Assembly: GCF_900108065.1 (NCBI RefSeq)
Contig: NZ_FNVQ01000009.1
Span: 1-64,000, forward strand
Reading direction: 5' to 3'
Length of the DNA: 64,000 bases
DNA from: Marinobacterium lutimaris
GTDB lineage: Bacteria > Pseudomonadota > Gammaproteobacteria > Pseudomonadales > Balneatricaceae
Shown here: positions 20,611-61,030 of the stretch, one piece after another
How positions within the stretch are numbered: position 1 is the stretch's first letter
Layout: each line of letters starts with the position of its first letter
Program-made: the position numbers and the translations under genes
The notes under the pieces: generated by a model
What the model saw: the letters and a program-made list of their open reading frames with translations, nothing else
Databases searched by the model: none
What the model was told of the DNA's origin: nothing

Positions 20611-22281
<1,671 letters not shown>

Positions 22282-32122: not shown

Positions 32123-32151
32123 GGCGTACTCCTATTTCAGCGGGTGTCGGG

Positions 32152-33081: not shown

Positions 33082-33091
33082 ATTCGTCCCC

Positions 33092-33841: not shown

Positions 33842-33875
33842 AACGTACCTTTCCTCAAAAAATCAGCCCGACGCC

Positions 33876-35111: not shown

Positions 35112-35166
35112 CTTATTTCCTCCAGCATAAAGGGAGGCCCCAGCCTCCCCATAACATCACAGGCGG

Positions 35167-36354
35167 TTAGCAGAACGCTTGCAGACCTGTTTGAGCGCGA
35201 CCCAAGATCAACGCATGGACATCATGAGTCCCCTCGTAGGTGTTCACCGATTCAAGGTTGACCATATGACGCATAACACCGAACTCATCGGAGATACCAT
35301 TGCCACCATGCATATCACGCGCGATACGAGCTATTTCCAACGCTTTCCCGCAGTTGTTACGCTTGATCAACGACACCATCTCCGGTGCCCAGTTGCCGCT
35401 ATCCATCAGACGACCGACCTGCAATGCGGCCTGCAGACCCAGAGTGATTTCGGTTTGCATATTGGCCAGCTTTAGCTGAACCAGCTGATTGGCGGCCAGA
35501 GGACGACCGAACTGCTTACGATCCAAGGTGTACTGACGCGCCGCATGCCAGCAGAACTCCGCCGCACCCAAGGTGCCCCAGGCAATACCGTAACGGGCTT
35601 TGTTGAGGCAGCCGAACGGACCGGACAAACCACTTGCGTTAGGCAACAGGTTCTCCTCCGGCACAAACGCCTCGTCGAGGACGATCTCACCGGTAATTGA
35701 TGCGCGCAGGCTCAACTTGCCTTCGATCTTCGGTGTAGAGAAACCCTCGGTACCGCGCTCGACGATAAAGCCGCGAATTTTGCCCTCATGCGCCTCAGAC
35801 TTGGCCCAAACAACGGCAATGTCAGCGATCGGACTGTTGGTGATCCACATCTTCTGACCGGTTAGCAGATAACCGCCATCGACCTTCTTGGCGCGGGTGA
35901 TCATCGAGCCCGGGTCAGAGCCGTGATCGGGTTCAGTCAGCCCGAAGCAACCAACGATTTCACCGGTGGCCAGTTTGGGCAGGAACTTCTGCTTCTGCTC
36001 TTCAGAGCCGTAACTCTCGATGGGAAACATCACCAGGGAGGACTGCACGCTCATCGCTGAGCGGTAACCTGAATCGACACGCTCCACTTCACGGGCGATC
36101 AGGCCGTAAGCCACATGGTTCAAACCGGCACCGCCGTACTCCTCGGCCACAGTTGCGCCGAGCAGGCCCATCTCGCCCATCTCACTCATGATGTTGCGGT
36201 CAAAACGCTCTTCACGGTATGCACTAAGCACCCGCGGCTGCAGCTCGTTCTGGCAATAGGCCCGTGCGGCCTCACTGATCTGACGTTCATCTTCCGTCAG
36301 CTGTTGATCAAGAAGCAGCGGATCGTCCCAGTTAAAGCTTGAGGAGTGTGACAT
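35167..36354 (-). CDS. gcdH: Glutaryl-CoA dehydrogenase, 395 aa
   Basis: An acyl-CoA dehydrogenase fold flavoenzyme that oxidises and decarboxylates glutaryl-CoA to crotonyl-CoA. It matches the GcdH pattern in detail: '[18 protein letters not shown]' at the N-terminus, '[18 protein letters not shown]', '[16 protein letters not shown]', and the catalytic Glu374 in '[20 protein letters not shown]'. Length is standard. GGAG lies upstream of the ATG. It heads the - strand operon gcdH - CoA-transferase - etfBA - ETF-QO - fadB and is divergent from a GntR regulator, which probably controls it. Confidence 0.95.
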
Positions 36355-39802: not shown

Positions 39803-39867
39803 GCTGACCCTCCATTCATTGCCTTATATTAAGTTTTGCACTCTAGGGCTTCCATAATATGCACGTT

Positions 39868-39904
39868 TATAGCTATAGTGCAATAATATTACTTTGTGCA
39901 CAAA
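39868..39904. promoter_or_regulatory. Palindromic operator candidates, DUF1185 / FAH divergent region
   Basis: Two perfect palindromes lie in the 122-base gap: TATAGCTATA (39868-39877) and TTTGTGCACAAA (39893-39904). The nine-mer ATAGCTATA and the TTTGTGCA half-site both recur at 49140-49161, before the GlcG-like gene and next to a GntR/FCD regulator. This points to one regulator acting at both places. The second palindrome ends 20 bases before the FAH start, a position suited to repression. Confidence 0.55.
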
Positions 39905-39924
39905 AACAAAAAATGGAGTCAATT

Positions 39925-40779
39925 ATGAGATTTATCTCTTACACCAAAGACAACAAGCCTGGTTTTGGCGTTGTTACTGCGGATAATAAGGTTATTGAAC
40001 TGGCCGGCAAGGTCGCTGGCGCGGATTGTCTGGCAACGCTCGTGGGCAGTGAAGAGCTGTTGGGCAGGGCTAAAGACTATGCAGCAACCGCCACTCCCAG
40101 CTGCGACTACGATGCTATCACCCTGGAGCCGGTCATTCCGCAGCCGAGCAAGATCATCTGTGTCGGTATCAACTATGTAGCTCACGCCGCCGAGGCTGGT
40201 CGCAAGGTGGGACAGTATCCGGTTATTTTCCAGCGTTTCGCCGACACACTGCAGGCAGCTGACGCACCGATTATCCGTCCAGTGGTGTCTCCTGAATTCG
40301 ACTTCGAAGCTGAGCTCGCAGTTGTTATCGGCAAAGGCGGTGGCCACATCGCTCCTGAAGATGCCATGAAGCATGTAGCCGGCTACACCTGCTTCAACGA
40401 TTCAAGTGTGCGTGACTGGCAGTTCCACACTCACCAGTACGGCATGGGTAAAACCTTCCGCAAAACCGGTGCGCTCGGCCCCTGGTTGGTAACTACAGAC
40501 GAGATCGCGGATTACCGCGAGCTGGAGATCAAGGGCGTACTGAACGGTGAGCAGATGCAGGAGGGCAAGCTGTCCGAGCTGGCATTCGACATTCCGCACC
40601 TGATTTCATACGTATCCCAGGCCCTAGACTGGAATCCGGGAGACATCCTCGCCACCGGAACCCCGAGTGGAATCGGCTTCAAACGCAATCCGCCGATTTT
40701 CCTCAAGCCTGGCGATGTGTTTGAGGTGGTTATCTCGCAGATCGGAACGCTCACCAACACCGTAGCCGACGAAGCCTGA
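39925..40779 (+). CDS. Fumarylacetoacetate hydrolase (FAH) family protein, 284 aa
   Basis: A FAH-superfamily enzyme that hydrolyses, decarboxylates or isomerises a 1,3-dicarbonyl-type intermediate. The metal-binding segments 'PEFDFEAELAVVIGKGG' and the following 'AGYTCFNDSSVRDWQ' are clear, as are 'GKTFRKTGALGPWLVTTDE' and the C-terminal 'GDILATGTPSGIGF'. Length is normal. The start 'MRFISYT' at 39925 follows GGAG, so an upstream ATG at 39913 is less likely. It begins a + strand operon FAH - VOC - aldehyde dehydrogenase. This trio resembles a ring-fission lower route, but the substrate is not known. Confidence 0.9.
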   Translation: MRFISYTKDNKPGFGVVTADNKVIELAGKVAGADCLATLVGSEELLGRAKDYAATATPSCDYDAITLEPVIPQPSKIICVGINYVAHAAEAGRKVGQYPVIFQRFADTLQAADAPIIRPVVSPEFDFEAELAVVIGKGGGHIAPEDAMKHVAGYTCFNDSSVRDWQFHTHQYGMGKTFRKTGALGPWLVTTDEIADYRELEIKGVLNGEQMQEGKLSELAFDIPHLISYVSQALDWNPGDILATGTPSGIGFKRNPPIFLKPGDVFEVVISQIGTLTNTVADEA

Positions 40780-40833
40780 TCGCCAGCCAAGTGCAATGTG
40801 ATTAACAATCAAATAACAACAAGAGAGACAATC

Positions 40834-41391
40834 ATGAACACCTTGCCAAAACTGCACTTCACCCACGCCGGTATCCACTGCGTTGACGTGGATATGATGG
40901 TCGAATTCTATACCAGCAAACTCGGCCTGGTCATCAGCGATCAGGGGGTAGCATCCACCGGCCACCGTCTGTTCTTCATGACCCTGGATCCAGAAATTCA
41001 CCACCAGTTTGTGCTGTTTGACGGCAAACCGGAGGGGATGAATTTCAACCCCGTCAACCAGCTATCCTTTCTAGTGGATAGCCTTGGCGACCTGCGAAAC
41101 TATTACCGCTTCGCCACGGAGAATGGCATCCAGAATATTGGCCAGGTTGACCACGGTAACGCTTGGTCGATCTACTTCAAGGACCCGGAAGGCAACCCCG
41201 TCGAAGTGTACGTGGACAGCCCCTTCTATACAGCTCAACCCTGCCGCGAACCGCTTGATCTGAGCACAACTGACGAAGAGATTCTCGCTCGCACAGAAGC
41301 AATGTGCCACAACCGCCCGGATTTCCAGACACGCGAAGAGTGGATTGAATCAACACGCCAGCTGATCGCCGACAAGCGCGCCCGCTTGTAA
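40834..41391 (+). CDS. VOC-superfamily protein (glyoxalase/single-domain dioxygenase type), 185 aa
   Basis: A vicinal oxygen chelate fold protein: 'THAGIHCVDVDMMVEFYTSK' at the start and 'WSIYFKDPEGNPVEVYVDSP' near 111-130. The metal ligands by position would be His11, Gln76 (in 'NQLSFLVDS') and Glu124, so the usual second His is replaced by Gln. It could be a one-domain extradiol dioxygenase, an isomerase or a lyase. The C-terminal 45 residues are an extra charged tail. It lies 54 bases after the FAH gene and 58 before the aldehyde dehydrogenase. Confidence 0.8.
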   Translation: MNTLPKLHFTHAGIHCVDVDMMVEFYTSKLGLVISDQGVASTGHRLFFMTLDPEIHHQFVLFDGKPEGMNFNPVNQLSFLVDSLGDLRNYYRFATENGIQNIGQVDHGNAWSIYFKDPEGNPVEVYVDSPFYTAQPCREPLDLSTTDEEILARTEAMCHNRPDFQTREEWIESTRQLIADKRARL

Positions 41392-41449
41392 CTCAAAGCG
41401 TCTCGGCCCTGCCATGCAGGCCGAGACTCTCACCGGGAAATAGAACACT

Positions 41450-42880
41450 ATGCATAAGAACCTAATCGGCGGGCAATGGGTTGACGGCCGAGCCGAGCGC
41501 ATCAACCTAAACCCCTCGGATACCAACGATCAGATCGGCGTGTATGCTCAGGCCTCGGCTGAGGATACGCTAGTCGCAATCGATGCCGCGGAAGCGGCGC
41601 AGCCTATCTGGGCATCACTGAGCCTACAGCAGCGTGCCGACGCTCTGGAGTTCATTGGTACTGAGATTCTGTCTCGCCAGACAGAGCTGGGCACCCTGCT
41701 CGCGCGCGAAGAGGGCAAGATTCTACCCGAGGCTGTCGGAGAGGTAGTTCGCGCCGGACAGATCTTTAAATTCTTTGCCGGAGAAATCCTTCGCCCCCAG
41801 GGGGAACATCTGGACTCCGTGCGCAGCGGCATCGAGGTCGATATTGTGCGCCAGCCGGTTGGCGTAATCGGCATCATTGCCCCATGGAACTTCCCGATCG
41901 CCATTCCCGCCTGGAAGATCGCACCGGCACTGGCCTATGGCAACGCCGTGGTGTTTAAGCCAGCCGACCTGGTACCCGGGTCAGCCTGGGCGCTGGCCGA
42001 GATCATCTCTCGCGCCGGTCTGCCGGACGGTACATTTAACCTGTTGATGGGCCGCGGCAGCGTTGTTGGCCAGTCTATGGTTGAATCTCCCAAGGTCAAG
42101 GCGATCAGCTTTACCGGTTCAGCCGACACCGGACGCCGGATACTGACCACTGCAGCTCCCCGTCTGGCGAAACTACAGATGGAGATGGGTGGCAGTAATC
42201 CACTGGTGATCCTCAACGACGCCGACCTCGATCTAGCAGTGGATGTGGCCGTTCAGGGCGCGTACTTCTCGACCGGACAGCGCTGTACCGCTTCTTCCCG
42301 CTTTATTATCGAAAAAGGGATCTACTCCCGGTTCACCGCGGCGGTGCAGGAAAAACTGCAATCGCTGGTAGTTGGGCATGCCCTGGACCCACAGAGCACT
42401 ATTGGCCCTGTCGCCGACAAGGCGCAGTTTGAGCTCAACTTGAGGGATATAAAAGCAACACGAGCCGAGGGCGCTCGGCTGGCGTTTGGGGGCGAAGCGC
42501 TGACACGGGAAACACCGGGATACTTTATGAGCCCAGCTCTCTTCGTTGATGCGGAACCCGGTATGCGTATCGCTCAGGAGGAGTTTTTCGGCCCGATCGC
42601 CTGTGCGATACCCGCCGTCGACTACGAACACGCTCTGCAGCTGGCAAACGACTCCTCTTACGGACTCTCAGCCGGCATCTGCACCAACTCGCTCAAGTAC
42701 GCCACCGACTTCAAGCGCAAAGTGCAAAGCGGAATGGTGATGGTGAATACCCCCACCGCCGGCGTTGATTATCACGTGCCGTTCGGCGGCACCAAGGGGT
42801 CGAGTTATGGTTCACGCGAGCAGGGTCGCTATGCGGCCGAGTTCTACACCACAGTAAAGACGGCTTACACCCGATACTGA
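41450..42880 (+). CDS. NAD(P)-dependent aldehyde dehydrogenase, 476 aa
   Basis: The full ALDH fold is present. Catalytic Cys279 lies in 'GQRCTASSRF', the general base Glu245 in 'LQMEMGGSNPLV', and the oxyanion Asn147 in 'APWNFPIAIPAWK'. The NAD-binding motif is 'SFTGSADTGRRI'. Its pattern resembles semialdehyde dehydrogenases. If the pathway feeds glutaryl-CoA dehydrogenase, oxidation of glutarate semialdehyde to glutarate is an attractive role, though only inferred. It ends the FAH - VOC - ALDH operon and a hairpin follows. Confidence 0.93.
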   Translation: MHKNLIGGQWVDGRAERINLNPSDTNDQIGVYAQASAEDTLVAIDAAEAAQPIWASLSLQQRADALEFIGTEILSRQTELGTLLAREEGKILPEAVGEVVRAGQIFKFFAGEILRPQGEHLDSVRSGIEVDIVRQPVGVIGIIAPWNFPIAIPAWKIAPALAYGNAVVFKPADLVPGSAWALAEIISRAGLPDGTFNLLMGRGSVVGQSMVESPKVKAISFTGSADTGRRILTTAAPRLAKLQMEMGGSNPLVILNDADLDLAVDVAVQGAYFSTGQRCTASSRFIIEKGIYSRFTAAVQEKLQSLVVGHALDPQSTIGPVADKAQFELNLRDIKATRAEGARLAFGGEALTRETPGYFMSPALFVDAEPGMRIAQEEFFGPIACAIPAVDYEHALQLANDSSYGLSAGICTNSLKYATDFKRKVQSGMVMVNTPTAGVDYHVPFGGTKGSSYGSREQGRYAAEFYTTVKTAYTRY

Positions 42881-43169: not shown

Positions 43170-44105
43170 TCACTCACTGTTTTTTACCACCACACCCAAT
43201 GGAGGGCGCTGCCGATGCTCAGCAGAAACTTCGGCCAGAATTTGCCTGATCCATTTATGCAGGCCAGAAAAATGTGTTCGCTCAGTCCAATACATATCGA
43301 TGGCTATGGGCACCTCCAGCGGGAAAGGCTTGGTCACAAGTCCATCACCTAATACGTTCGCCAGCCGCCCTGGGATGGTAGCCACAAGGTCACTGCCTCG
43401 AATCATTTGACCCAGGTTGTCGTGGCTGGGGATAGAGAGATCCGGGGCAAGGTTGATACCTTGTAGACGCAGGACAGAATAGAACAAGGCCTCCCAGTGT
43501 CCGTTGTGGGTAACCGCAATATGCTTGGCGTTGCAAAATTGCTCCAAGCTCAGCGGCTGATCTGCCAGATAATTATCAACATCCATCAAACAGATATATT
43601 GATCTGTAAATAGATTACGTCGATAAAAAACGTCCCCTATGATCGCCACTGGGCCGAGCAGGATATCGACCGTATTCTCCAAGAGCTGACGCTTGCCATC
43701 AACAGCCGCCTCATGCAGATCGATTTTGATATGGGGTGCTTCACGCCTAATACGCCGAACCGCTTCCGGGATCAGTGCTCGTCTTTCATGATAGTTACAA
43801 CTGATAACAACCCTACCCTGCGCTTCCTTCGGCTCAAAATCCTTCTTTGATGCCAATCGATCAAGGGTTGTCAGAATATCCCGCACCTCTTCAACGATTT
43901 CGTGGCAACGATCGGTAGGTTCAATCTTGTTTCCGGTACGCACAAACAGAGGGTCTTCGAAACTGTCGCGCAGAATTTTCATGGTGTAGCTGGCGGTCGA
44001 TTGATTGATCCCGATTAGATGGGCAGCTTCGGTAAACGAACCACGCTCATAAATCGTAACGAGAGTCCTGAACATATTTATATCGAGCTTCTCAAGCTTC
44101 TTCAT
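43170..44105 (-). CDS. LysR-family transcriptional regulator, 311 aa
   Basis: An N-terminal winged helix, 'MFRTLVTIYERGSFTEAAHL' with 'INQSTASYTMKILRDSFEDP', is followed by a LysR substrate-binding domain ending near 310. The ATG at 44105 is chosen over an in-frame GTG at 44123. It is divergent from the P450 gene, with 120 bases between the starts. A perfect 7-7-7 inverted repeat at 44132-44152 is the likely binding site. It should act as the activator of the P450 operon. The effector is probably the P450 substrate or product. Confidence 0.9.
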   Translation of the reverse strand: MKKLEKLDINMFRTLVTIYERGSFTEAAHLIGINQSTASYTMKILRDSFEDPLFVRTGNKIEPTDRCHEIVEEVRDILTTLDRLASKKDFEPKEAQGRVVISCNYHERRALIPEAVRRIRREAPHIKIDLHEAAVDGKRQLLENTVDILLGPVAIIGDVFYRRNLFTDQYICLMDVDNYLADQPLSLEQFCNAKHIAVTHNGHWEALFYSVLRLQGINLAPDLSIPSHDNLGQMIRGSDLVATIPGRLANVLGDGLVTKPFPLEVPIAIDMYWTERTHFSGLHKWIRQILAEVSAEHRQRPPLGVVVKNSE

Positions 44106-44131
44106 ACACGTACCAGCCAGCACATTTAATA

Positions 44132-45412: not shown

Positions 45413-45730
45413 ATGACAATAATTACATTTGTACAACCTTCAGGTAGTAAAGCGACGGTCGAAGTGACCGAAGGCCTCTCGTTGATGGAAGCTGCGTTGC
45501 ACAATGGCGTCGAAGGAATTCTGGCTGAATGCAACGGTGCGGCTGCGTGCGCTACCTGCCATGTGGTGCTGCCGAAAGAGGTTTATGACCGGCTGGATGC
45601 ACCGGAAGATCATGAAGAAGATATGCTGGATTTCACCACGGCTGACCGTCAACCCTGTAGTCGCCTAAGCTGCCAGGTCAGTATTTCTGAAGATATGAAC
45701 GGCATGGTCGTACATATCCCGGGCGAATAA
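45413..45730 (+). CDS. [2Fe-2S] ferredoxin, putidaredoxin/adrenodoxin type, 105 aa
   Basis: The small electron carrier that feeds the P450. Cluster ligands are Cys40, Cys46, Cys49 and Cys87, with the spacing CX5CX2CX37C typical of vertebrate-type P450 ferredoxins, as in 'CNGAAACATCHVVL' and 'RLSCQV'. It is acidic around residues 64-75, the surface patch for partner binding. It lies 11 bases after the P450 gene and before the reductase, completing a class I chain. Confidence 0.96.
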   Translation: MTIITFVQPSGSKATVEVTEGLSLMEAALHNGVEGILAECNGAAACATCHVVLPKEVYDRLDAPEDHEEDMLDFTTADRQPCSRLSCQVSISEDMNGMVVHIPGE

Positions 45731-45835: not shown

Positions 45836-47050
45836 ATGCAAACTGTAGTCATGATCGGTGCGGGGCAGGCTAGTTTAGCTTGTGCTGCAAAATTACGATC
45901 TAAAGGCTTTGACGGAGAGATTATTATAATTGGTGATGAACCAAATCTTCCTTATCAACGCCCACCGCTTTCCAAGGCTTATTTATTAGGGAAAGTCGAA
46001 AATGAACGTTTATTACTGCGCCCGCAAGCCTGGTATGAAAAAGAAAAAATCGAGTTACTAACGTCCAATAAAGTTGAACGAATTGACCGCAGCAACAAAA
46101 ATATTGAGCTGTCTGACGGCCGCTTACAAAAATATGATGCTCTTGTCATCGCCACTGGATCAGCTGCCCGCAACCTACCGCTATCGATGACCCGTTCAAT
46201 ATCGGGCATCCATACCATCAGAGACCTGGCCGACATTGAAAGACTGCGCCCCGAATTGGACGTGGCCAAAAACATGGTGGTAATCGGCGGTGGATACATC
46301 GGACTGGAGATGGCCGCCGTTGCCAAAGGCTTGGGGCTGGAGGTTAATGTCATCGAAGTCGCACCCAATATTTTGGGACGTGTCGCATCGAAAGAGACCG
46401 CCGATTACATATTGAAACTGCATCAGGATCAGGGTGTTCAATTTCATGTAGGCGAGCAGATCAAGGAGCTGACTGGCGAAGAAAAAATTCAGTCGGTGGT
46501 TCTTGAAAACGGCAAAGAGATACGGGCTGATATTGTCGTCGCCGGCATTGGCGCTATGCCCAGGGTAGAACTTGCCGAACAAGCCGACCTGGAGATCGCC
46601 AACGGAATTCTTGTCAACGAGCTTGGCCAAACCTCCGATTCAGATATTTACGCGATTGGCGATTGCGCCTGCTACCGCTTGCAAAACGGTGATATCCGCC
46701 TGGAAAGTGTCGGTAACGCTATCGATACCGGCGAACTTGTCGCCTGTAACATTCTTGGTGAAACGGTTTCCTACGAGCCTAAACCCTGGTTCTGGTCCGA
46801 TCAGTTCGATATGAAACTGCAGATCGCAGGGCGGATTTCCACCCAGGACTGCGTCACTGTCCGCGACGTCGAAGGTGAAGGGCGCTCCCATTGGTACCAC
46901 CGCGATGGGCAGTTGGTCGCTGTCGATGCCCTCAACGCGCCACGTGCCTACCTGATCGGACGCAAGATGGTTTTAAACGGCTTGTCACCAACTGGGGAGC
47001 AGCTAGCCAACCGACAGAAATCACTGAAAGAGATCTTCGAGAGTTTATGA
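45836..47050 (+). CDS. NAD(P)H ferredoxin reductase (putidaredoxin reductase type), 404 aa
   Basis: An FAD-dependent pyridine nucleotide reductase. The first Rossmann motif is 'VVMIGAGQASLACAAKLR' and the second is 'MVVIGGGYIGLEMAAVAKGL' near residues 140-160. The FAD contact 'SDIYAIGDCACY' follows. Length and order match reductases that reduce [2Fe-2S] ferredoxins for P450s and dioxygenases. The gene is AT-richer than its neighbours for its first 350 bases. GGAG precedes the ATG, and it is 105 bases after the ferredoxin gene. Confidence 0.95.
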   Translation: MQTVVMIGAGQASLACAAKLRSKGFDGEIIIIGDEPNLPYQRPPLSKAYLLGKVENERLLLRPQAWYEKEKIELLTSNKVERIDRSNKNIELSDGRLQKYDALVIATGSAARNLPLSMTRSISGIHTIRDLADIERLRPELDVAKNMVVIGGGYIGLEMAAVAKGLGLEVNVIEVAPNILGRVASKETADYILKLHQDQGVQFHVGEQIKELTGEEKIQSVVLENGKEIRADIVVAGIGAMPRVELAEQADLEIANGILVNELGQTSDSDIYAIGDCACYRLQNGDIRLESVGNAIDTGELVACNILGETVSYEPKPWFWSDQFDMKLQIAGRISTQDCVTVRDVEGEGRSHWYHRDGQLVAVDALNAPRAYLIGRKMVLNGLSPTGEQLANRQKSLKEIFESL

Positions 47051-47122: not shown

Positions 47123-48130
47123 ATGGAAAAAACATTAGATACATCAATTAAGATCAATGCACCGGCCCATGTAATCTGGGCCATATTGGATGACATTGAA
47201 CGATATCCCGAATGGAACCCTCTGGTCCCTGAGCTGAAGGGAAAAACGATGGTTGGCCGCCAGGTGGAAGGTATCTTGACTCGCGAAGGTATGCCCACCG
47301 TTCCACTGAAGCCGACGCTGACAGCTATTGTCGGTGCAAGAGAGCTACGCTGGCTCTCCGAGCGCCCCACTCCCGGCGAGTTTCGTGCAGAGCACTACTT
47401 CGTTCTGGAACAGAATGATGACGGTACAACCACCCTTATCCATAACGAAGATTTTTCCGGAACCTTCCTGACTCAGGTCTGGGATGGGATCAATACTCTG
47501 GGGCGTGCGGCTTACATCAGGATGAACGAAGCCCTGAAGGAGCGTGCAGAAGCGTTGGCCACCGAAGAACCCTATGTCCACGCCAGCCTTGATAACACAC
47601 CGTCAGATAAGGTTTCGCTGCAGGGAAAAACCCTGAAATGCTCATGCGCGGAAAACCCTGTCGTTATCAACGTCAATGCGCCGATTTACCATAACCACCT
47701 GTGCGGCTGTAGCAAATGCTGGAAGCCTGAGGATGCGTTGCTGGCGTTGATCGCAGTCGTGGCGGATGGACAGCTGACCGTTGCAGAGAATAACGACAAG
47801 CTGCAGATTGTCGATGAAACCCAATCCATCAAGCGCTATGCCTGCTCATCCTGCGGCACGCATATGTACGGTACGGTTGAAGACAGGGATCATCACTTTT
47901 ACGGTCTGAACTTCATCCACCCTGAACTGGTGACAGATGGCCAGATACCGGTACCTGAATTTGCGGCGTTTGTTTCCTCGTTGGTTGAAACCGGATTGGA
48001 ACCGGCTCAGATGGTTTCAATTCGTACCAAACTTGAGGACCTCGGGATCCCATCCTACGACGTATTTTCTCCGGAAATCATGGACCTGATCGCCTGGCAT
48101 AAGGTCAAACTGGAAAAGTGCGACCAGTAG
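47123..48130 (+). CDS. SRPBCC-Gfa fusion protein, 335 aa
   Basis: Two domains in one chain. Residues 1-145 form an SRPBCC (START-like lipid/ketide-binding) domain: 'SIKINAPAHVIWAILDDIER', 'YPEWNPLVPELKGK' and 'GLGRAAYIRM'-like C-helix. Residues about 160-330 match glutathione-dependent formaldehyde-activating enzyme (Gfa): Cys173 and Cys175, 'HLCGCSKCWKPEDALL' (Cys194, 196, 199) and 'CSSCGTHMYG' (Cys241, 244), which are the two zinc sites, then 'FAAFVSSLVETGLEPAQM'. Stand-alone Gfa is about 190 aa and lacks the first domain. Gfa traps formaldehyde as S-hydroxymethylglutathione. As the last gene of the P450 operon, it probably captures formaldehyde from P450 demethylation. The fusion is unusual. 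Confidence 0.88.
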   Translation: MEKTLDTSIKINAPAHVIWAILDDIERYPEWNPLVPELKGKTMVGRQVEGILTREGMPTVPLKPTLTAIVGARELRWLSERPTPGEFRAEHYFVLEQNDDGTTTLIHNEDFSGTFLTQVWDGINTLGRAAYIRMNEALKERAEALATEEPYVHASLDNTPSDKVSLQGKTLKCSCAENPVVINVNAPIYHNHLCGCSKCWKPEDALLALIAVVADGQLTVAENNDKLQIVDETQSIKRYACSSCGTHMYGTVEDRDHHFYGLNFIHPELVTDGQIPVPEFAAFVSSLVETGLEPAQMVSIRTKLEDLGIPSYDVFSPEIMDLIAWHKVKLEKCDQ

Positions 48131-48258: not shown

Positions 48259-48948
48259 TTACTGCAGAGTGGCGCTTTCCTGCAGGCGCAAAGCGGCGGT
48301 CACATTCTTCAATGTGCCCCTGATGTGCGCATCCAACAGTTCCGCAGCGCCCTTTGCATCCCGCTCCAACGCAATATCCATCAGCCGCTGGTGCTCATCG
48401 CTCTTATTGCGAACCGCGGTGCGATGAAGTGCAGAGTAGCGCCTATAACGCTCGGCCTGATCGAATAGAGAATCGATCAGCCGCAGCAGACGATCTGACT
48501 TGCACGCGGAAAAAAGCGCGAAGTGAAACGCTTTGTGGCGCTCGGTCCAGTCATCGTCCAGCACTACGGAACGCCCAGCCAATTTCTTCTCCGCCACCCT
48601 CAGACGATGGAAAGCACCAATCACGTCGGCTTCCCAAGCATCGTCGCCATTCTCGATTGCATCGACCAGCGCCTCACACTCCAGCAAACATCGCAACCGC
48701 GTGATCTGCTCGAAGTCGTCGATTGTAAGACTGGAGACTCTAAAACCCCTGTTTTCACTGGCAACGACCACGCCTTCCTGCGATAGACGATTCAGTGCCT
48801 CACGAATGGGAGAGCTGCTCAGGCCATAAGACTTGGACAGGTTGGCTACCTTGAGCTTCTCACCGGGAGCAAGCTCACAACAGATGATCGCTTTCTTCAT
48901 CTGCTGAAAGGCCACCTCAATGAGTGATCCTTCTTGGGTGTTTTGCAT
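48259..48948 (-). CDS. GntR-family regulator with FCD domain, 229 aa
   Basis: A winged helix-turn-helix, 'LSKSYGLSSSPIREALNRLS' with 'GVVVASENRGFRVSSLTI', precedes an FCD effector domain containing 'WTERHKAFHFALFSACKS' and the metal-ligand His 'DEHQRLMDIALERD'. Length is normal. It is divergent from the GlcG-like gene and the DUF1302 transport operon. Motif copies TTTGTGCA/TTTATGCGCAAA flank its start, and the same motif lies before the FAH gene 9 kb away, so it is the best candidate for a shared regulator of both. Confidence 0.9.
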   Translation of the reverse strand: MQNTQEGSLIEVAFQQMKKAIICCELAPGEKLKVANLSKSYGLSSSPIREALNRLSQEGVVVASENRGFRVSSLTIDDFEQITRLRCLLECEALVDAIENGDDAWEADVIGAFHRLRVAEKKLAGRSVVLDDDWTERHKAFHFALFSACKSDRLLRLIDSLFDQAERYRRYSALHRTAVRNKSDEHQRLMDIALERDAKGAAELLDAHIRGTLKNVTAALRLQESATLQ

Positions 48949-49761: not shown

Positions 49762-51399
49762 ATGACTACGCCTAGAAAGATCCAGGTAAACTGGAACTGC
49801 TTTCGACTACCCCTGTACACCGCAGGCATCGCTGCAGCACTGCTGACTTCGTTCAACACCTACGCGTTTCAGATCGATACTGGCGACTCTGGAGTAAAAG
49901 CCAGTTGGGAAAATACTATTAAGTACAGCACAGCCTTCCGTGTCTCCGATCTTGATGAAAGCGTTGCCGCTACCAGCACCAATCCAAACGTCGATGATGG
50001 CGATCGCAACTTCGATAAGGGACTGATCTCCAATCGTCTCGATCTTCTCTCTGAATTCAACATCCGTTATCAGAACATTGGGGCTCGTATCAGTGCCGCC
50101 GCTTGGTACGACGACGTCTACAACAACTCCAACGACAACGACTCCCCCGCCACCTTCAATGGGCTGAGCGTGGATAACGATGAGTTCACCGACGATACCA
50201 AGGAGCTGCACGGCCGTGATATCGAGCTGCTCGACGCCTTTGTCTACGGCTCTACCAATATCGGTTCATCTCACATCTCGGCTCGCCTGGGTCAGTTCAC
50301 CGAGATCTACGGCGAAAGCCTGTTCTTCGGCGCCAACGGTATCGCTAGCGCTCAGGGGCCGGTCGATCTAATCAAGCTGCAATCGGTCCCCGGCTCGCAA
50401 TTCAAGGAGATCTTGAGACCCGTTCCACAGCTATCCACCAGCCTGCATCTGAGCAACGGCATCAACCTCGGCGCCTATTACCAGTTTGGCTGGGAAAAAA
50501 CGCGACTTCCCGCATCAGGGAGCTACTTCAGCAATGGTGATTTTGTCGGCGAAGGTGCAGAAACCGTCAACATAGGCTTCCCGTTGATTCACGCATCCGA
50601 CCTCGAGGCAAAAGACTCAGGTCAGTTCGGTGTACAGATGAAGTTTTCCTACAATGACTGGGATTTCGGCCTGTATGCAGCCAAATACCACGCCAAAACT
50701 CCCCAGTTTTACTGGCAGCCCGCTTTCGCAGGTGGTGACGACACCTATAAAGCGGTGTATGCGGAGGATATCAAAACCTATGGCGCTAGCTTCAGCACCC
50801 TGGTGGGCGAAGCCAACGTGGCAGGTGAAGTGTCTGTCCGTATCGATACCCCATTGGCCGCCCACGGTGGTGTAGTGTTCGGTGCCCCGCTCAGTGCTGA
50901 CAACGGCGATAATGCTGCTTACCCAGTGGGTAACTCCCTGCATGCTCAACTCTCGATGATCGACCTCTACGGCGAGAGCAGCCTCTGGGACGCCGCTGCG
51001 CTCGTCGGCGAAGTGGCGTACAACCGTCGTCTCAGCGTGAAGAAGAACAAGGCGATGCTCGATCCGAACTCGACTCGTGACGCCGTGTCACTGCGCTTCA
51101 CCTTCGAGCCTCAGTACTTCCAGGTGATACCCGGCGTAGATCTGCAGGTTCCGATCACCGTCGGCTATACCCCTTACGGCCGTTCATCGGTCACCCCGCT
51201 GGCCTTTGCACCTGAGCATGGCGGCGATATCACCATCGGTGTCAAAGCTGACTATCAGAAAACCTGGTACGGCTCGCTGAGCTACACCAACTTCTTCGGT
51301 AGTGGCGGCCCTATTGTGCGCTCCGACAACAACTACAGCTTCGACCAAACCATGGCGGATCGTGACTTCATTGCTCTCTCGATCCAGCGCAAGTTCTGA
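49762..51399 (+). CDS. DUF1302 outer-membrane beta-barrel protein, 545 aa
   Basis: The signal peptide region ends near 'FNTYAFQIDTGDSG', after a hydrophobic stretch 'LYTAGIAAALLTSF'. The mature protein is rich in alternating beta strands with many aromatic and Asp/Asn residues and ends 'DFIALSIQRKF', a terminal-Phe outer-membrane signature. The pattern and the neighbouring DUF1329 gene identify the DUF1302 family, typical of catabolic regions for hydrophobic compounds. It probably forms an outer-membrane channel or receptor. AGAGG precedes the ATG. Confidence 0.88.
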   Translation: MTTPRKIQVNWNCFRLPLYTAGIAAALLTSFNTYAFQIDTGDSGVKASWENTIKYSTAFRVSDLDESVAATSTNPNVDDGDRNFDKGLISNRLDLLSEFNIRYQNIGARISAAAWYDDVYNNSNDNDSPATFNGLSVDNDEFTDDTKELHGRDIELLDAFVYGSTNIGSSHISARLGQFTEIYGESLFFGANGIASAQGPVDLIKLQSVPGSQFKEILRPVPQLSTSLHLSNGINLGAYYQFGWEKTRLPASGSYFSNGDFVGEGAETVNIGFPLIHASDLEAKDSGQFGVQMKFSYNDWDFGLYAAKYHAKTPQFYWQPAFAGGDDTYKAVYAEDIKTYGASFSTLVGEANVAGEVSVRIDTPLAAHGGVVFGAPLSADNGDNAAYPVGNSLHAQLSMIDLYGESSLWDAAALVGEVAYNRRLSVKKNKAMLDPNSTRDAVSLRFTFEPQYFQVIPGVDLQVPITVGYTPYGRSSVTPLAFAPEHGGDITIGVKADYQKTWYGSLSYTNFFGSGGPIVRSDNNYSFDQTMADRDFIALSIQRKF

Positions 51400-51422
51400 G
51401 CCCCTCTCTTCAGGAGAATAAT

Positions 51423-52775
51423 ATGAATAAGTACCTTCTGGCTTTTTCCGCGAGTCTCACGCTTGGGCTCGCATCCTCTTCCTCTTTTGCAGCGGTATCC
51501 GCCGACCAGGCCGCCGAGCTCAAGAGTAAGCTTACCCCTCTGGGCGCCGAGCGTGCAGCGAACGCCGACGGCAGCATCCCAGCTTGGGATGGCGGTATGA
51601 CGCAGGACCCTGGTGGCGCCAAATTCGGCGATGTACCTGCCGATCCGTTTCCTGGCGAGAAACCACTGTTCCGCATAACTGCCGAGAACGCGGCTCAGTA
51701 CGCTGACAAACTGACCGACGGTACCAAAGCGCTGATGCAGAAATACCCGGACAAGTTCTTTGTCGATGTCTACCCGACTCACCGTACCGCAGCGGCACCG
51801 GACTGGGTGTATAACAATACGCTGAAGAACGCCACCGACTGCAAACTGACCGACAACGGTCTGTCGGTAGACGACTGCTATGGAGGCATCCCCTTCCCGA
51901 TTCCGCAGAACGGTAGCGAAGCGATCTGGAACACCCTTCTGCGCGTCGAAGCCGAGTCGGTGGAAATGGGTTACGTCAACATAGTCGGTAACGCTGACGG
52001 CACGCGTACCCTGGCCAGCCGAGGCGTGGAGAACTGGCAGTACCCCTACTACTACAAGGAGGGTGACGCGGCCGATTGGTCTGGTCTCTATGTACTACTG
52101 CGCTTCCTGACCAACGAACCACCCTACAAGGCAGGGGAATCGTTGGTCACTCACGACAGCATTGACCCCAAATCACCCCGTTCAGCCTGGCAGTACCTGG
52201 TTGGCCAACGTCGCGTGCGCCGTGCGCCGACTGTGGGTTACGACACCCCTGACTTCGTAGCATCGGGCGCTAACTACTTTGACGAGGTGCAGGGCTTTAT
52301 CGGCCACCCGGACCGGTACGACTGGAAACTGATCGGTAAGCAGGAGATGTACATCCCCTACAACACCAACAAGTTCCACAGCGAGAAACCGGACGACGCC
52401 TTCTCCGAAGACGTACTGAACTCCGAAAAGATGCGCTGGGAACTGCACCGTGTCTGGGTTGTGGAGGCCAACGTATCTGAAGGCAAGCGCCATGCCGTAC
52501 CCAAGCGCCGCTTTTACATCGATGAGGACAGCTGGACCGTGAGTCTGGTCGATGGCTATGACGCAGAAGACAAGCTCTGGCGCGTAACTCAGGTGATGCC
52601 TTTCGTCGTACCGTCAATACCGGCTGTCGTGGTTAAGCCCATCGTGGTTTACAACCTGCAGGGCGGCATCTACAGCGTGGTACAGGGACTGAATGGCGAA
52701 AGCTATGAAGTAGTGCCTCGGAAAAACGATTACTTCTTCACCGGTAACTCCATGATTTCGGACTCCGTCCGCTGA
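51423..52775 (+). CDS. DUF1329 periplasmic/outer-membrane protein, 450 aa
   Basis: A clear signal peptide 'MNKYLLAFSASLTLGLASSS' ends near 'SFAAV'. The mature protein shows DUF1329 features: 'RTAAAPDWVYNNTLKNATDC' and 'GGIPFPIPQNGSEAIWNTLL' near 120-180, then 'VGQRRVRRAPTVGYDTPDF' and 'RRFYIDEDSW'-like 'KRRFYIDEDSWTVSLVDGYD'. This beta-rich fold resembles LolA/LolB-type lipid carriers. It follows the DUF1302 gene by 23 bases with AGGAG before its ATG. The pair is a recurring unit, probably for handling hydrophobic molecules between membranes. Confidence 0.9.
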   Translation: MNKYLLAFSASLTLGLASSSSFAAVSADQAAELKSKLTPLGAERAANADGSIPAWDGGMTQDPGGAKFGDVPADPFPGEKPLFRITAENAAQYADKLTDGTKALMQKYPDKFFVDVYPTHRTAAAPDWVYNNTLKNATDCKLTDNGLSVDDCYGGIPFPIPQNGSEAIWNTLLRVEAESVEMGYVNIVGNADGTRTLASRGVENWQYPYYYKEGDAADWSGLYVLLRFLTNEPPYKAGESLVTHDSIDPKSPRSAWQYLVGQRRVRRAPTVGYDTPDFVASGANYFDEVQGFIGHPDRYDWKLIGKQEMYIPYNTNKFHSEKPDDAFSEDVLNSEKMRWELHRVWVVEANVSEGKRHAVPKRRFYIDEDSWTVSLVDGYDAEDKLWRVTQVMPFVVPSIPAVVVKPIVVYNLQGGIYSVVQGLNGESYEVVPRKNDYFFTGNSMISDSVR

Positions 52776-52853
52776 TCACTGCCGGGACCGGAGCGCTTAC
52801 CCACTCCCAAAATAAGTGTGCGCTCCGTTCAGCCGAACTCGAGGTTCTACATC

Positions 52854-53987
52854 ATGCAAAAAGAATACAAACAACCGACTCGGTACTCCCACATGTCACT
52901 GGCTGTTCTTTCGGTGCTTGGTCTCAGCGCAGCCCTGCTGTCACCGAGTGCAGTAACTGCAGCAAGTGCAGAAATCAGCAACAACCTCTACGAACAGACT
53001 GCCATATCCAGCGGTCTGGCCTCGCACTCGTTGATGTTGGATGTGGCGGATACCGGGGATCGCCTCGTCTCTGTCGGTGAACGCGGGTTCATTCTAATCT
53101 CCGACGATGCTGGCCGTTCCTGGCAACAGATTCAGTCGCCGGTGAGCGTTACCCTGACACGGGTGGTTTTCGCGACTCCGCAGCAGGGCTGGGCTGTCGG
53201 TCATGCCGGTGTCGTCCTGCATACCAAGGATGGCGGACTGACGTGGCAGAAGCAGCTAGATGGCATGCGCATCGCGGAGCTTGAGGTTACCGCAGCAACG
53301 GATGCCTACAACCTCGATCCCAACCAGGAAAACGAGTTCAAACTGAAGATGGCTAAGCGTCTGGTCGAAGACGGGCCGGACAAGCCACTGCTAAACCTCT
53401 ATTTCTCCGATGCGCATAACGGCATGGTGATTGGTGCCTACGGTCTGGCACTGACAACAGAGGATGGTGGCGCCAGCTGGCACAGCATCAGTAATCATCT
53501 CGATAACCCTTCCGGATTGCATCTGTACGATATCATCGAGAACAACGGCACCCTGTATATCGCCGGGGAACAGGGACTATTACTCGCCTCTTACGACGGC
53601 GGCGGCTCTTTTGAGGAGCTGAATTCACCCTCCATGGGCTCTCTATTCGGCCTGGTAAGCACTGAAAACGGCGCGATAGTCATATACGGACTCCGCGGTG
53701 GAATCTATCTCTCCGAGGACAGCGGCGACTCCTGGCAGGAGATCCCCAACCGCCTGCCCATTACCATTACCGCCGGTGCCCGCCTGCAGGATGGCAGCCT
53801 GCTGTTGCTCGACGAGTCGGGACGGACTCTGCGCAGTAGCGACAACGGCCACAGCTTCAGCGCCACCCCCATAGCCGAACCTACCTACCTGACCGGGCTG
53901 ACTCAGACACAGGATGGTGAACTAATCCTCACCGGTCTGCGCGGCCCGATACGGCTAGCCGAAGGCAGCCACGATAGGGAGTCCTGA
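52854..53987 (+). CDS. YCF48-related beta-propeller protein, 377 aa
   Basis: The start 'MQKEYK' at 52854 follows GAGG. A signal peptide 'MSLAVLSVLGLSAALLSPSA' leads to export. The mature part has repeated BNR/YCF48 blades such as 'ILISDDAGRSWQQIQSPVSV', 'VVLHTKDGGLTWQKQLDG', 'ALTTEDGGASWHSI' and 'IYLSEDSGDSWQEIPNRL', forming a propeller. YCF48/HCF136 proteins help assemble membrane complexes, and here it may assist the RND protein encoded two bases downstream. It belongs to the DUF1302-DUF1329-YCF48-RND unit. Confidence 0.88.
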   Translation: MQKEYKQPTRYSHMSLAVLSVLGLSAALLSPSAVTAASAEISNNLYEQTAISSGLASHSLMLDVADTGDRLVSVGERGFILISDDAGRSWQQIQSPVSVTLTRVVFATPQQGWAVGHAGVVLHTKDGGLTWQKQLDGMRIAELEVTAATDAYNLDPNQENEFKLKMAKRLVEDGPDKPLLNLYFSDAHNGMVIGAYGLALTTEDGGASWHSISNHLDNPSGLHLYDIIENNGTLYIAGEQGLLLASYDGGGSFEELNSPSMGSLFGLVSTENGAIVIYGLRGGIYLSEDSGDSWQEIPNRLPITITAGARLQDGSLLLLDESGRTLRSSDNGHSFSATPIAEPTYLTGLTQTQDGELILTGLRGPIRLAEGSHDRES

Positions 53988-53989
53988 CA

Positions 53990-56434
53990 GTGAATGCGCC
54001 CATGAACAAACAACCGATAGAATCCGTGACCCATCAAACCGCCTTCGATAGACATTCTGGCAACATCATTGAGCGAGTCCTGTTCAATAACCGGATCGCG
54101 GTGATCGCAGTCTGCCTGCTTGTCAGCCTATTTCTGGGCTATCAGGCACTCGGGCTCAAACTGAACGCCGCGTTTGAGAAGATGATCCCGATCGATCACC
54201 CCTACATCCAGAACTACTTCGAGAACCGAACCCAGCTGGGCCAGGGCAGTAATGTGCTACGCATCGCGGTCAGCACCACCGAGGGTACGATATACGACGC
54301 CGACTATCTGGATACACTGAAGAAGATCAGCGACGAGGCGTTCCTGATCAAGGGTGTCGACCGCCCCTACATGAAATCCCTGTGGACGCCGGCCACTCGC
54401 TGGATCGGTGTAACGGAAGAGGGATTCGACGGCGGTCCGGTGATTCCTGACAGCTATGACGGTTCGACACAGAGCCTGGAACAGGTACAGCAGAATGTGG
54501 ACCGCTCTGGCGAGATAGGCCGACTGGTCGCTGCGGACCTTAAATCCAGCATCGTGCTGCTGCCACTGCAGGACGCTGCAGCGACCGGATCCGAAGAGGC
54601 CAAACCGATCGATTATGAGGCTCTCTCGCAGCGCTTGGAAGAGATCCGTAAGACCTACGAAAGCGATACGATCAAGATCCATATCACCGGTTTTGCTAAA
54701 GTCGTTGGAGACCTGATCGACGGTCTACAGCTAATGCAGCTCTTCTTCGGCATGACGCTGGCGATCTGTACTCTGGTGCTGCTCTGGTACACCCGCTGCG
54801 TACGCAGCACGGCGCTAGTGTTATCCTGCTCACTGATCGCGGTAGTCTGGCTGCTGGGCCTGCTGCCTCTACTAGGCTTTGATCTGGACCCCTACTCTAT
54901 ATTGGTGCCCTTCCTGGTATTCGCTATCGGCCTGAGTCATGGCGCCCAGAAGATGAACGGCATCATGCAGCAGATCGGCCGTGGATCGGAGAAATACGCC
55001 GCCGCACGACTCACCTTCCGCCGCCTTTTCCCGACCGGCATGATGGCGCTGACTACCGACGCCGTAGGTTTTGCCGTACTGATGGTGATCCATATCCCGG
55101 TTATCCAGGATCTGGCTCTGACCGCCACCATCGGCGTAATGATATTGATCCTGACCAACCTGATCGTTTTGCCGATACTGCTCTCCTACACTGGCGTCAG
55201 CAAAAAGGCAGCAGCACGGGAAGCGGAATCCGCCCGTGTCGACCCGCACGATACCGAGCATCAGCGCCACCCGACCTGGGCGTTTCTCGATCACTTTACC
55301 ACCAAACGCTGGGCAAGCATTGTCGTAGTGGTGGCCATCGTACTGGGTGCCGGTGGCTTCATCATCAGTTCCAAGGTAAAAGTGGGAGACTTGGATCCCG
55401 GTGCACCGGAGCTACGCGCCGACTCGCGCTACAACCGTGACAACGCTTTCATGGTGGCCAACTACGCCGCCAGTAGCGACCGGTATGTGGTGATGGTCAA
55501 GACACCACTGTATTACTGCGCTAACTACGACACACTGGTCAAAGTGGATGCGCTGGAAGCCCAATTGCAGCAGCTGCCGGGTGTGGTATCGACCAGTTCG
55601 CTGGCGGCGCTGAGCAAGTACGCGGCGGCAGGCATGAACGAGGGCAGCATGACCTGGTACGAGATCCCCCGTAACCAGGGCCTGTTGAACGCCATCATCA
55701 CCCGCGCGCCGCGCGAGCTGTTCAACCAGAACTGTGACCTGATGACGATAAACGTGTTCCTGTCAGATCATAAGGCCGACACGCTGAACCGCGTCGTAGA
55801 TTTGGTCGACAAGTTCGCAGCCGCCAACAATACAGACGATATCCGGTTTATGTCTGCCGCCGGTAACGCCGGTATCGCCGCAGCCACTAATATCGTCGTG
55901 GAGCAGGCCAACACGCAGATGTTGATTCTGGTGTACGCAGCAGTAATCGTGCTCTGCTACCTGACCTTCCGCAACCTACGTGCGGTGGTCTGCACCGTAC
56001 TGCCGCTGATGCTGACCTCTATTTTGTGTCAGGCACTGATGGTGGAGCTGGATATAGGCTTGAAGGTTGCAACACTGCCAGTTATCGCTCTGGGTGTCGG
56101 TATCGGCGTGGACTACTCGCTCTATATCCTGAGTATCACGTTGAACAACCTTCGCCAGGGTGCCCCACTATCCAACGCCTATTACGCAGCACTGCTTTCC
56201 ACCGGCAAGGTCGTAATCCTGACCGGTATCACGCTCGGCATTGCCGTTGCCACTTGGTCGCTGTCACCGATCAAGTTCCAAGCCGATATGGGCATCTTGC
56301 TCGCCTTCATGTTCATCTGGAACATGCTCGGCGCGCTGATCCTGACACCCGCGCTGGCCAGACTGCTGCTGCCAAGCATGAGCAAGGCATCCAGCGAGGA
56401 ACCGGCGACGGCCATGAGAGCAGTCAGCGAATAA
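53990..56434 (+). CDS. RND-superfamily (MMPL-like) transporter, 814 aa
   Basis: An inner-membrane transporter with two halves, each with one TM segment, a periplasmic loop and five TM segments, typical of the MMPL/HAE3 branch. The GTG start at 53990, two bases after the YCF48 stop, is preferred because AGGGAG is well spaced before it. TM and motif stretches include 'LVPFLVFAIGLSHGAQKMNG' and 'LPVIALGVGIGVDYSLYILS', the paired TM4-type segments. This branch moves lipids, sterols or hydrophobic compounds. With DUF1302/DUF1329 it probably exchanges a hydrophobic substrate across the envelope. A strong terminator follows. Confidence 0.9.
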   Translation: MNAPMNKQPIESVTHQTAFDRHSGNIIERVLFNNRIAVIAVCLLVSLFLGYQALGLKLNAAFEKMIPIDHPYIQNYFENRTQLGQGSNVLRIAVSTTEGTIYDADYLDTLKKISDEAFLIKGVDRPYMKSLWTPATRWIGVTEEGFDGGPVIPDSYDGSTQSLEQVQQNVDRSGEIGRLVAADLKSSIVLLPLQDAAATGSEEAKPIDYEALSQRLEEIRKTYESDTIKIHITGFAKVVGDLIDGLQLMQLFFGMTLAICTLVLLWYTRCVRSTALVLSCSLIAVVWLLGLLPLLGFDLDPYSILVPFLVFAIGLSHGAQKMNGIMQQIGRGSEKYAAARLTFRRLFPTGMMALTTDAVGFAVLMVIHIPVIQDLALTATIGVMILILTNLIVLPILLSYTGVSKKAAAREAESARVDPHDTEHQRHPTWAFLDHFTTKRWASIVVVVAIVLGAGGFIISSKVKVGDLDPGAPELRADSRYNRDNAFMVANYAASSDRYVVMVKTPLYYCANYDTLVKVDALEAQLQQLPGVVSTSSLAALSKYAAAGMNEGSMTWYEIPRNQGLLNAIITRAPRELFNQNCDLMTINVFLSDHKADTLNRVVDLVDKFAAANNTDDIRFMSAAGNAGIAAATNIVVEQANTQMLILVYAAVIVLCYLTFRNLRAVVCTVLPLMLTSILCQALMVELDIGLKVATLPVIALGVGIGVDYSLYILSITLNNLRQGAPLSNAYYAALLSTGKVVILTGITLGIAVATWSLSPIKFQADMGILLAFMFIWNMLGALILTPALARLLLPSMSKASSEEPATAMRAVSE

Positions 56435-58583: not shown

Positions 58584-59626
58584 TCACTCTGCTACCAGGC
58601 TACCCTTCTGGCTTATCCGGTACTCAGTGCCCTTGGTCAACAATGCCCATGCCGTACTACATTTTTATTAGCCAGCGCGACGGCTGCTTTTCCGTATCCC
58701 GCTCGCTGAATCAACTCCCAGAGCCACCGCTGCTTTGGTGTTTTGGGCTCTTTCAGCTTATGCACATACGCCCGAGCACCCTGTATCAGCACCGATCTCA
58801 AACGGTGATTGGCTACATGCTTGCTGATTCCAATCATGTTTGCTCTTCCCCCGCTACTGTACTGTTTAGGTGTCAGGCCGATGTAAGCTGAGTATTCGCG
58901 ACCATTTTTGAAAGCTTCACCGGTCCCTAGAGTAGAAAACAACAACACCGCACTTATTGGCCCGACGCCCTCTATAGCCGTCAGGCGATTACAGCCATCA
59001 TTTTGCTTCACAATCTGTTTAACCTGCTCGTTGAGGAAATCGATATCCTCCCGGAGTTTCAGATACCGATTAAACATACGGTGCAAAGTGGGTCGGTAGA
59101 TGTGGGGAACACCGTTCTCTGCATCTTCGAGGACGAATGGAATCCGATAGTTTAGGGCAGCAAAACCTTTCGGAATCACCACACCGAACTCCAGAAGCAG
59201 CCCGCGAATGTGATTCGAGAGTGAGGTTCGTTCCTGAACCAATAGTTCACGCGAACGCTGTATCGCTTGAATGCCCTGCTGCTCAATAGTCTTGAGTGGT
59301 GCTTCCTTAATGTTGGGACGGTTCGCCGCTTCAGCGACGGCCAATGCATCATTTTTATCTGTCTTATGACCTTGCCTAAATGGCGTCACCGCTTTTGCCG
59401 GAATGATCTTGGTACGATGCCCCTGCGCTTGGGCATACCTCGCCCAATAATGGGCGGTCGCACACGCTTCAAATGCAACAAGGGATGGCTTTTGCTTCGC
59501 AAGGAACTCAGCGAATTTGGTACGTGTTAGCTCGGTATTCTGAAGCTCAATACCGGATGTCGAGACGATGGAAGATTGGATGACGTTTTTGGCTAAATCG
59601 ACGCCAATGGTATTTGTCGTGGCCAT
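58584..59626 (-). pseudogene. IS110-family (IS1111-like) transposase with C-terminal frameshift
   Basis: The DEDD domain is visible: 'IGVDLAKNVIQSSIVSTSG', 'VAFEACATAHYWARYA' and 'KTDKNDALAVAEAA'. The transposase-20 part includes 'GVGPISAVLLFSTLGTGEAF' and 'GLTPKQYSSGGRANMIGISK'. After 'KAAVALANKN' near 58672 the frame ends quickly as 'VVRHGHC'. The family's normal tail, 'STAWALLTKGTEYRISQKGS', is found in another frame and stops at 58584, so one base was probably lost. It differs in sequence from the IS110 copy at 20886, so these are two distinct elements. It borders the catabolic block on its right side. Confidence 0.88.
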
Positions 59627-60559: not shown

Positions 60560-60577
60560 TATTTAGGCGTGCGTGTG

Positions 60578-61027: not shown

Positions 61028-61030
61028 ACG

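Follow-up and report, generated by a model that had tools for sequence, protein, structure and literature searches.

The window analysed here is a stretch of 64,000 nucleotides of contig NZ_FNVQ01000009.1 of Marinobacterium lutimaris. It holds an intact open reading frame, running from an ATG start to a stop codon, in which an SRPBCC domain is joined to a Gfa domain (Table 1); an in-frame GTG at 47114 could extend the N-terminus of the protein by three residues. The fusion gene follows those for a cytochrome P450, a ferredoxin and a ferredoxin reductase, all on the forward strand and separated by gaps of 11, 105 and 72 bases, and is thus the last gene of this operon, as the first-pass annotation of a class I P450 operon had it. 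No promoter-like or terminator-like site was listed on the forward strand between 43900 and 48400, and an Rfam scan of the 64-kb window at gathering scores gave no match. No Gfa other than the fusion was found in the M. lutimaris genome, and the S-(hydroxymethyl)glutathione dehydrogenase (AdhC) of this genome, 65% identical, is encoded on another contig.

Table 1. Positions in the window of the fusion gene, its domains and zinc-site codons, and the neighbouring genes
Feature	Positions	Strand	Remarks
LysR-type regulator	43170–44123	-	divergent, upstream; also beside the same P450 group in related loci
Cytochrome P450	44226–45401	+	nearest solved relatives 6g71 and GcoA
2Fe-2S ferredoxin	45413–45730	+	PF00111
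FAD ferredoxin reductase	45836–47050	+	PF07992, PF14759
SRPBCC–Gfa fusion gene	47123–48130	+	335 aa; one of 20 aligned intact members
SRPBCC domain (Polyketide_cyc2, PF10604)	47135–47551	+	residues 5–143
Gfa domain (S-(hydroxymethyl)glutathione synthase, TIGR02820)	47576–48106	+	residues 152–328
Zinc-site cysteine codons C173, C175, C194, C196, C199, C241, C244	47639–47854	+	from the 1x6m alignment
GntR regulator	48259–48948	opposite direction	convergent, 3' of the fusion gene

Both domains are recognised by profile. The SRPBCC half matches PF10604 above its gathering score (39.9 bits against a cut-off of 27.4), and the Gfa half matches PF04828 over residues 172–261 (36.2 bits against 24.3) and TIGR02820 with a margin of less than 1 bit over the equivalog cut-off (235.4 bits against 234.55). 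Of the Pfam families originally put forward, PF10604 and PF04828 were thus recovered, whereas PF03364 (Polyketide_cyc) fell just below its gathering cut-off (23.0 against 23.4). The score against the NF003829 (PRK05417) Gfa subfamily lies under the curated cut-off (242.9 bits against 249), and the fusion is therefore not placed in that subfamily. All 20 intact members of the family carry both domains, with matches to PF10604 at E ≤ 0.001, to TIGR02820 at E ≤ 1e-5 and to PF04828, the comparison with the TIGR02820 cut-off being given for the window protein.

The Gfa half is homologous over its full length to the Gfa of Paracoccus denitrificans (1x6m/1xa8), with the same fold. It aligns with 1x6m at 2.2e-55, and each of the seven zinc-site cysteines, all of which had been picked out at first sight, falls on a cysteine of 1x6m and is invariant in the 20 fusions. 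In a predicted structure of the window protein (pLDDT 80.9, with low confidence for residues 31–80 of the SRPBCC half), residues 146–334 superimpose on 1x6m with a Z score of 22.5 (185 aligned residues, rmsd 4.1), consistent with a Gfa fold. Residues 1–150 of the model resemble MSMEG_5634 (7wa9; Z 16.0, 139 aligned, rmsd 2.5) and the TcmN aromatase/cyclase (2rez; Z 14.2, 147 aligned, rmsd 3.2), both consistent with a helix-grip fold, so that the N-terminal half is like these SRPBCC/PF10604 proteins by profile as well as by fold; aromatase/cyclases and norcoclaurine synthase are among the proteins nearest to it in fold. Members of the SRPBCC fold family, such as Bet v 1, PYL and TcmN-type proteins, bind small, often aromatic ligands.

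Three residues of the SRPBCC half, D23, T42 and W120, are invariant in all 20 fusions and absent from all 23 stand-alone SRPBCC rows used for comparison, 22 of which are different. The conserved polar residues of this half are E90, H91 and E109. For the one pair compared, the window protein and its relative from Marinobacter halodurans, dN/dS is 0.06 in the SRPBCC half and 0.12 in the Gfa half, from which it follows for this pair that both halves are under purifying selection; two more distant pairs gave no usable dS for either half.

Nineteen further intact fusions align with the window protein at 46–85% identity and come from alpha-, beta- and gammaproteobacteria; they rule out a frameshift or sequencing error near codon 150 as the origin of the fusion. 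By tblastn against plasmids, this architecture was also found at 51–54% identity in Agrobacterium and in Aminobacter sp. MSH1, where the proteins are annotated merely as 'SRPBCC family protein'. When species genomes were scanned with the SRPBCC half, further fusions came to light in Marinobacter halodurans, Leisingera, Thalassospira, Sphingobium, Rhizobium, Mesorhizobium, Bradyrhizobium, Polaromonas, Hydrocarboniphaga and others. The closest relative, that of M. halodurans, keeps the entire P450 cluster at 83–94% identity. Two broken copies were also seen, one in Rhizobium sp. NXC24 with three in-frame stops (L020, 8986–10000) and one in Mesorhizobium tianshanense in which the frame is lost (L040, 9998–10777).

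The fusion is sparsely distributed. Of 398 genomes sampled evenly across the phylum, 34 had a Gfa match (E ≤ 1e-20), and in two of the 34, one of them the window's own genome, the Gfa was fused, which bears out the early remark that Gfa proteins normally stand alone. The window P450 gave matches at E ≤ 1e-60 in 27 genomes of the phylum sample of 398, the Gfa and P450 samples being treated as identical on the grounds of equal size and tallies; the two genomes with P450 identity of at least 60% (the window's own and G757) have the fusion, and in the remaining 25, with identity of 47% or less, no fusion was seen. Among 390 genomes sampled from the order, 14 gave a match: four with full fusions (the window's own and three of one genus), eight with stand-alone Gfas, one with a fusion fragment at a contig end, from the same genus as the three, and one with an SRPBCC-only match. 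Within the window's genus, seven further genomes gave no match at E ≤ 1e-10. In a check by genus, six genomes of one genus held three full fusions and one piece at a contig end, and Thalassospira has the fusion in one of 29 genomes. Of 247 genomes from one alphaproteobacterial family, 41 gave a match, and none of the matches covered both domains.

In a tree of 48 Gfa domains, the fused domains occupy one side of a branch with support of 100/99 that is present in 100% of 200 bootstrap trees, and the 28 stand-alone Gfas lie apart; long end branches were flagged in this tree (L025, L019, L018 and others), and stand-alone members of the fused branch could escape a search in which the fusions were found mainly via their SRPBCC half. 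That the fusion occurs patchily in alpha-, beta- and gammaproteobacteria suggests spread by horizontal transfer. It probably has a single origin and would be carried along as catabolic P450 clusters pass between lineages.

A split version of the pair was not seen: none of 54 loci with non-fused SRPBCC matches has a Gfa gene nearby, and 11 of the 54 have a P450, ten of these 11 being mycobacterial (L005 and L051 among the 54 are apparently the same contig entered two times, the flanks are short in three loci, and a number of the matches are partial). D23, T42 and W120 likewise set the fusions apart from non-fused SRPBCC proteins. In an Acidimicrobiia MAG, a stand-alone SRPBCC gene directly follows a P450 gene (L049, 617–2862), a possible unfused pairing of the two folds. 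In an Anaerolineaceae MAG, two SRPBCC genes of the fusion's kind adjoin one another (L041, 3488–4497).

Gene neighbourhoods were scored for each locus with profiles for P450, ferredoxin, reductase, AdhC, FghA, Gfa and SRPBCC, over about 10 kb or to the end of the locus. The 22 fused loci are the window, L018–L020, L022–L035, L040, L095, L037 and L038; the two broken copies, L020 and L040, were counted as loci and excluded from alignments and trees. Dropped from the set were L036 (the contig of L095), L133/L109 (the place of L024), L107/L015 (the contig-end piece) and L021 (a plasmid Gfa without a fused SRPBCC match and with short flanks). As controls, 28 loci with stand-alone Gfas were used, nine from the order sample and 19 drawn from the matches in the phylum sample.

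A P450 gene lies within 10 kb of the fusion in 20 of the 22 fused loci, against none of the 28 stand-alone loci, some of which have shorter flanks (L101, L102, L105 and L152 among them). With loci left unweighted, Fisher's test gives p = 5e-12, and a chance pairing of the fusion with a P450 operon is ruled out by these counts. Because all the fusions form one clade, the loci are not independent events; collapsed into hand-set lineage groups, a P450 is nearby in 14 of 15 against 0 of 10, and the independent part of the association is the seven groups of P450s described below. A ferredoxin and a reductase are both present in 16 of 22 fused loci against none of the 28 stand-alone loci, near which SRPBCC genes of the fusion's kind were also absent (0/28). 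The stand-alone Gfas thus differ from the fusion in lacking a nearby P450 and the N-terminal SRPBCC domain, and in standing on a separate branch.

Genes for the subsequent steps of formaldehyde metabolism were scored with AdhC and FghA seeds that reach the equivalog cut-offs of TIGR02818 and TIGR02821, respectively. AdhC lies within 4 kb in 15 of 22 fused loci (14 scored, plus L027, in which it is interrupted by the contig end), compared with 21 of 28 stand-alone loci. Within 2 kb it is found at 12 of 22 fusions and at 21 of 28 stand-alone Gfas, and therefore marks Gfas in general and not fusions. FghA is nearby in nine of 22 fused loci compared with three of 28 controls. The arrangement of the fused loci varies. 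Four of 20 loci have the P450 on the opposite strand to the fusion, and about 7–8 kb separate the two in most rhizobial loci. In one gammaproteobacterial genus with three fusions, two of these (L095 and L037) have no P450 in reach, and AdhC is absent from the vicinity of all three; the neighbours of the fusion at L095 include genes for a TonB receptor, an amidohydrolase, a sulfotransferase and a DUF1214 protein.

Single-linkage clustering at 40% identity puts the 20 fusion-linked P450s into seven groups, a second and incomplete P450 at L031 being excluded, and the other groups fall to about 22% identity to the P450 of the window. Nearest solved structures were looked up for seven of the 20, one for each group. 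In four groups, which hold 17 of the 20 P450s, the member looked up is nearest to GcoA-like or CYP199-like enzymes. The P450 of the window is nearest to 6g71 (342 bits), which we take to be CYP1232A24 of the papaverine pathway, and then to GcoA (217 bits), several structure entries of which are labelled 'Aromatic O-demethylase'. The Agrobacterium P450 is nearest to 8u09 (281 bits), presumably SyoA, followed by 9ia1 and GcoA. The P450s of Aminobacter and Polaromonas are nearest to CYP199 enzymes, that of Polaromonas closely so, scoring 493 bits against 2fr7 and 482 against entries for CYP199A4, a 4-methoxybenzoate demethylase. GcoA-like and CYP199-like enzymes are O-demethylases, and O-demethylation releases formaldehyde. 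Judged by sequence, the nearest characterised relatives of the window P450 are O-demethylases. At three loci the relatives are of other kinds: the Sphingobium P450 is nearest to 6kbh (393 bits) and RhF (357 bits), the latter presumably a CYP116B enzyme, and those of Hydrocarboniphaga and of one uncultured gammaproteobacterium are nearest to CYP144. We know of no demethylase role for RhF-type and CYP144 enzymes. Since the P450s fall into seven groups within the single clade of fusions, unlike P450 groups seem to have joined the same fused partner several times.

Taken with the predominance of demethylase-like P450s among those looked up, this pairing suggests that the fusion is probably a formaldehyde-handling partner dedicated to P450-catalysed demethylation, in which the SRPBCC domain would place the Gfa domain at the product or at the enzyme. 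It is the gene neighbourhood that suggests the link to formaldehyde, and the job of the SRPBCC half is inferred. The link to P450s proposed at the outset is borne out by the neighbourhoods, whereas the accompanying description of the Gfa half as a formaldehyde trap was overstated: according to the available part of PMC4682968, the Paracoccus Gfa binds glutathione and, in the conditions of that study, did not accelerate formation of the adduct. The authors of that study propose instead that Gfa co-localises glutathione (PMC4682968, in the part available), an idea that the fusion would fit.

The events at such a locus can be pictured in four steps. The class I chain of reductase, ferredoxin and P450 would oxidise a methoxy (or N-methyl) carbon, and the resulting unstable hemiacetal would split into the demethylated product and formaldehyde, as proposed for GcoA and expected here from homology. 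For GcoA, the accessible text of PMC6021390 reports roughly one aldehyde formed per NADH for five of the seven substrates that yield an aldehyde, four of the five giving formaldehyde and guaethol giving acetaldehyde, and it proposes that the hemiacetal breaks down in solution. The SRPBCC domain may then bind the product of the P450, or the P450 system itself, and so keep the Gfa domain close to where formaldehyde is set free. There the Gfa domain, whose zinc ligands are evident from the sequence and whose glutathione binding is expected from the Paracoccus homologue, would hold glutathione, such that formaldehyde may become S-(hydroxymethyl)glutathione rather than diffusing off. Finally, AdhC would oxidise the adduct and FghA would free formate, a flux consistent with the observed positions of their genes.

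What the SRPBCC half recognises is a matter on which the P450 groups bear directly. It may be purely a docking arm for the P450, the ferredoxin or AdhC, which binds no small ligand and raises the local concentration of the Gfa domain. The steadiness with which P450 chains accompany the fusions would suit such an arm, and D23, T42 and W120 could mark a protein interface. However, the same kind of partner is shared by all seven P450 groups, across which a P450-specific interface would be hard to maintain, and AdhC lies within 2 kb of 21 of the 28 stand-alone Gfas, every one of which manages without an SRPBCC domain; docking alone is thus possible but unlikely. Because one kind of fused protein accompanies seven P450 groups, recognition of the product or the hemiacetal is favoured over a P450-specific docking site, with modest confidence.

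A more specific form of product recognition, tentative and in our estimate rather unlikely, is that the immediate product of the P450, the aryl-O-CH2OH hemiacetal (or its N analogue), is taken up in the pocket of the SRPBCC half and guided to break down beside glutathione held on the zinc site of the Gfa domain. The fusion would then be a hydroxymethyl transferase from hemiacetal to glutathione, and formaldehyde would never be free. If true, this would explain how one protein can serve unrelated P450s, which would have in common a leaving group and not a surface, and it would also explain the purpose of Gfa.

It is improbable that the SRPBCC half is instead a pathway enzyme, such as a cyclase, a dehydratase or a ring-modifying enzyme, and that the fusion is merely bifunctional. 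The aromatase/cyclases and norcoclaurine synthase among its fold neighbours, together with the conserved E90, H91 and E109, are in keeping with catalysis, yet the SRPBCC half is conserved across loci whose substrates probably differ, given that the flanking genes vary by locus and the P450s belong to seven groups. Distinctly improbable is an ordinary Gfa for general formaldehyde detoxification, with the SRPBCC half as a passenger or stabiliser. Being the only Gfa found in its genome and scoring as an equivalog, if by a narrow margin, the window protein could be expected to serve in this way. Against this, the constraint on the SRPBCC half is at least as strong as that on the Gfa half in the one pair compared, the half is kept in 20 of 20 intact members (found by a search with the SRPBCC half, which losses would escape), and the stand-alone Gfas show a P450 link in none of 28 loci. 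That the Gfa half has shifted to another small aldehyde or metabolite made by these P450s is highly improbable, for although the P450s of three loci have RhF-type or CYP144 enzymes as their nearest relatives and the catalysis of Gfa is itself disputed, genes for formaldehyde-specific next steps lie near many fusions (AdhC at 15 and FghA at nine of 22) and most of the P450s looked up resemble O-demethylases.

Formaldehyde is the expected by-product of the GcoA/SyoA (CYP255A) and CYP199A4 systems, which are nearest to most of the fusion-linked P450s, and the available portions of PMC6021390 and PMC13101465 mention no fused formaldehyde-handling partner. The system in the window, unlike these, has a three-part class I chain. 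According to the accessible part of PMC10380055, which names no Gfa and no fusion, the caffeine N-demethylase (ndm) cluster of Pseudomonas also carries genes for S-(hydroxymethyl)glutathione dehydrogenase and S-formylglutathione hydrolase. The ndm enzymes are of the Rieske type, and their own SRPBCC domain is an iron catalytic domain.

Both domain families, and demethylase clusters with formaldehyde genes (PMC10380055, in the part available), are therefore already known. The fused architecture and its association with P450 clusters are apparently new: in agreement with the first-pass annotation, which knew of no such protein, a description of either did not turn up in the open-access literature, as far as its text was available, and nothing was found there that joins SRPBCC, formaldehyde and P450. 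In bacteria with the fusion, which probably use a P450 to demethylate small molecules, the toxic by-product is perhaps caught at its source. The role of Gfa is debated, as the protein binds glutathione but does not accelerate the reaction in vitro (PMC4682968, available part), and a Gfa bound in a fusion beside P450s that probably release formaldehyde offers a context for probing whether it acts by co-localisation. As aryl O-demethylation is a frequent bottleneck in lignin conversion (PMC6021390) and the formaldehyde from it may slow growth (PMC13101465), both according to the accessible parts of these papers, a formaldehyde partner that is naturally linked to a P450 would be a useful building block.

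The wider surroundings of the operon contain several further gene sets. On its 5' side, at 39859–42880 on the forward strand, lie genes for an FAA-hydrolase, a single-domain VOC protein with a weak likeness to extradiol dioxygenases and an aldehyde dehydrogenase, a set through which the ring of the demethylated product could be cleaved. Reverse-strand genes at 28257–36354 read as those for a 3-hydroxyacyl-CoA dehydrogenase, ETF-QO, ETF, a CoA-transferase and a glutaryl-CoA-dehydrogenase-like protein; the P450 cluster of M. halodurans is also adjoined by a CoA-transferase and an ETF gene (L022, 2939–4980). Downstream, at 49762–56434 on the forward strand, is a set named by reading as DUF1302/DUF1329/YCF48/MMPL-like, and sets of this kind commonly accompany hydrophobic substrates. 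The catabolic region is flanked by genes that read as IS110-like transposases at 20718–21806 and 58637–59626, the second of which is followed by umuDC-like genes at 60569–62305, and the 81.8-kb contig may be a plasmid or an island.
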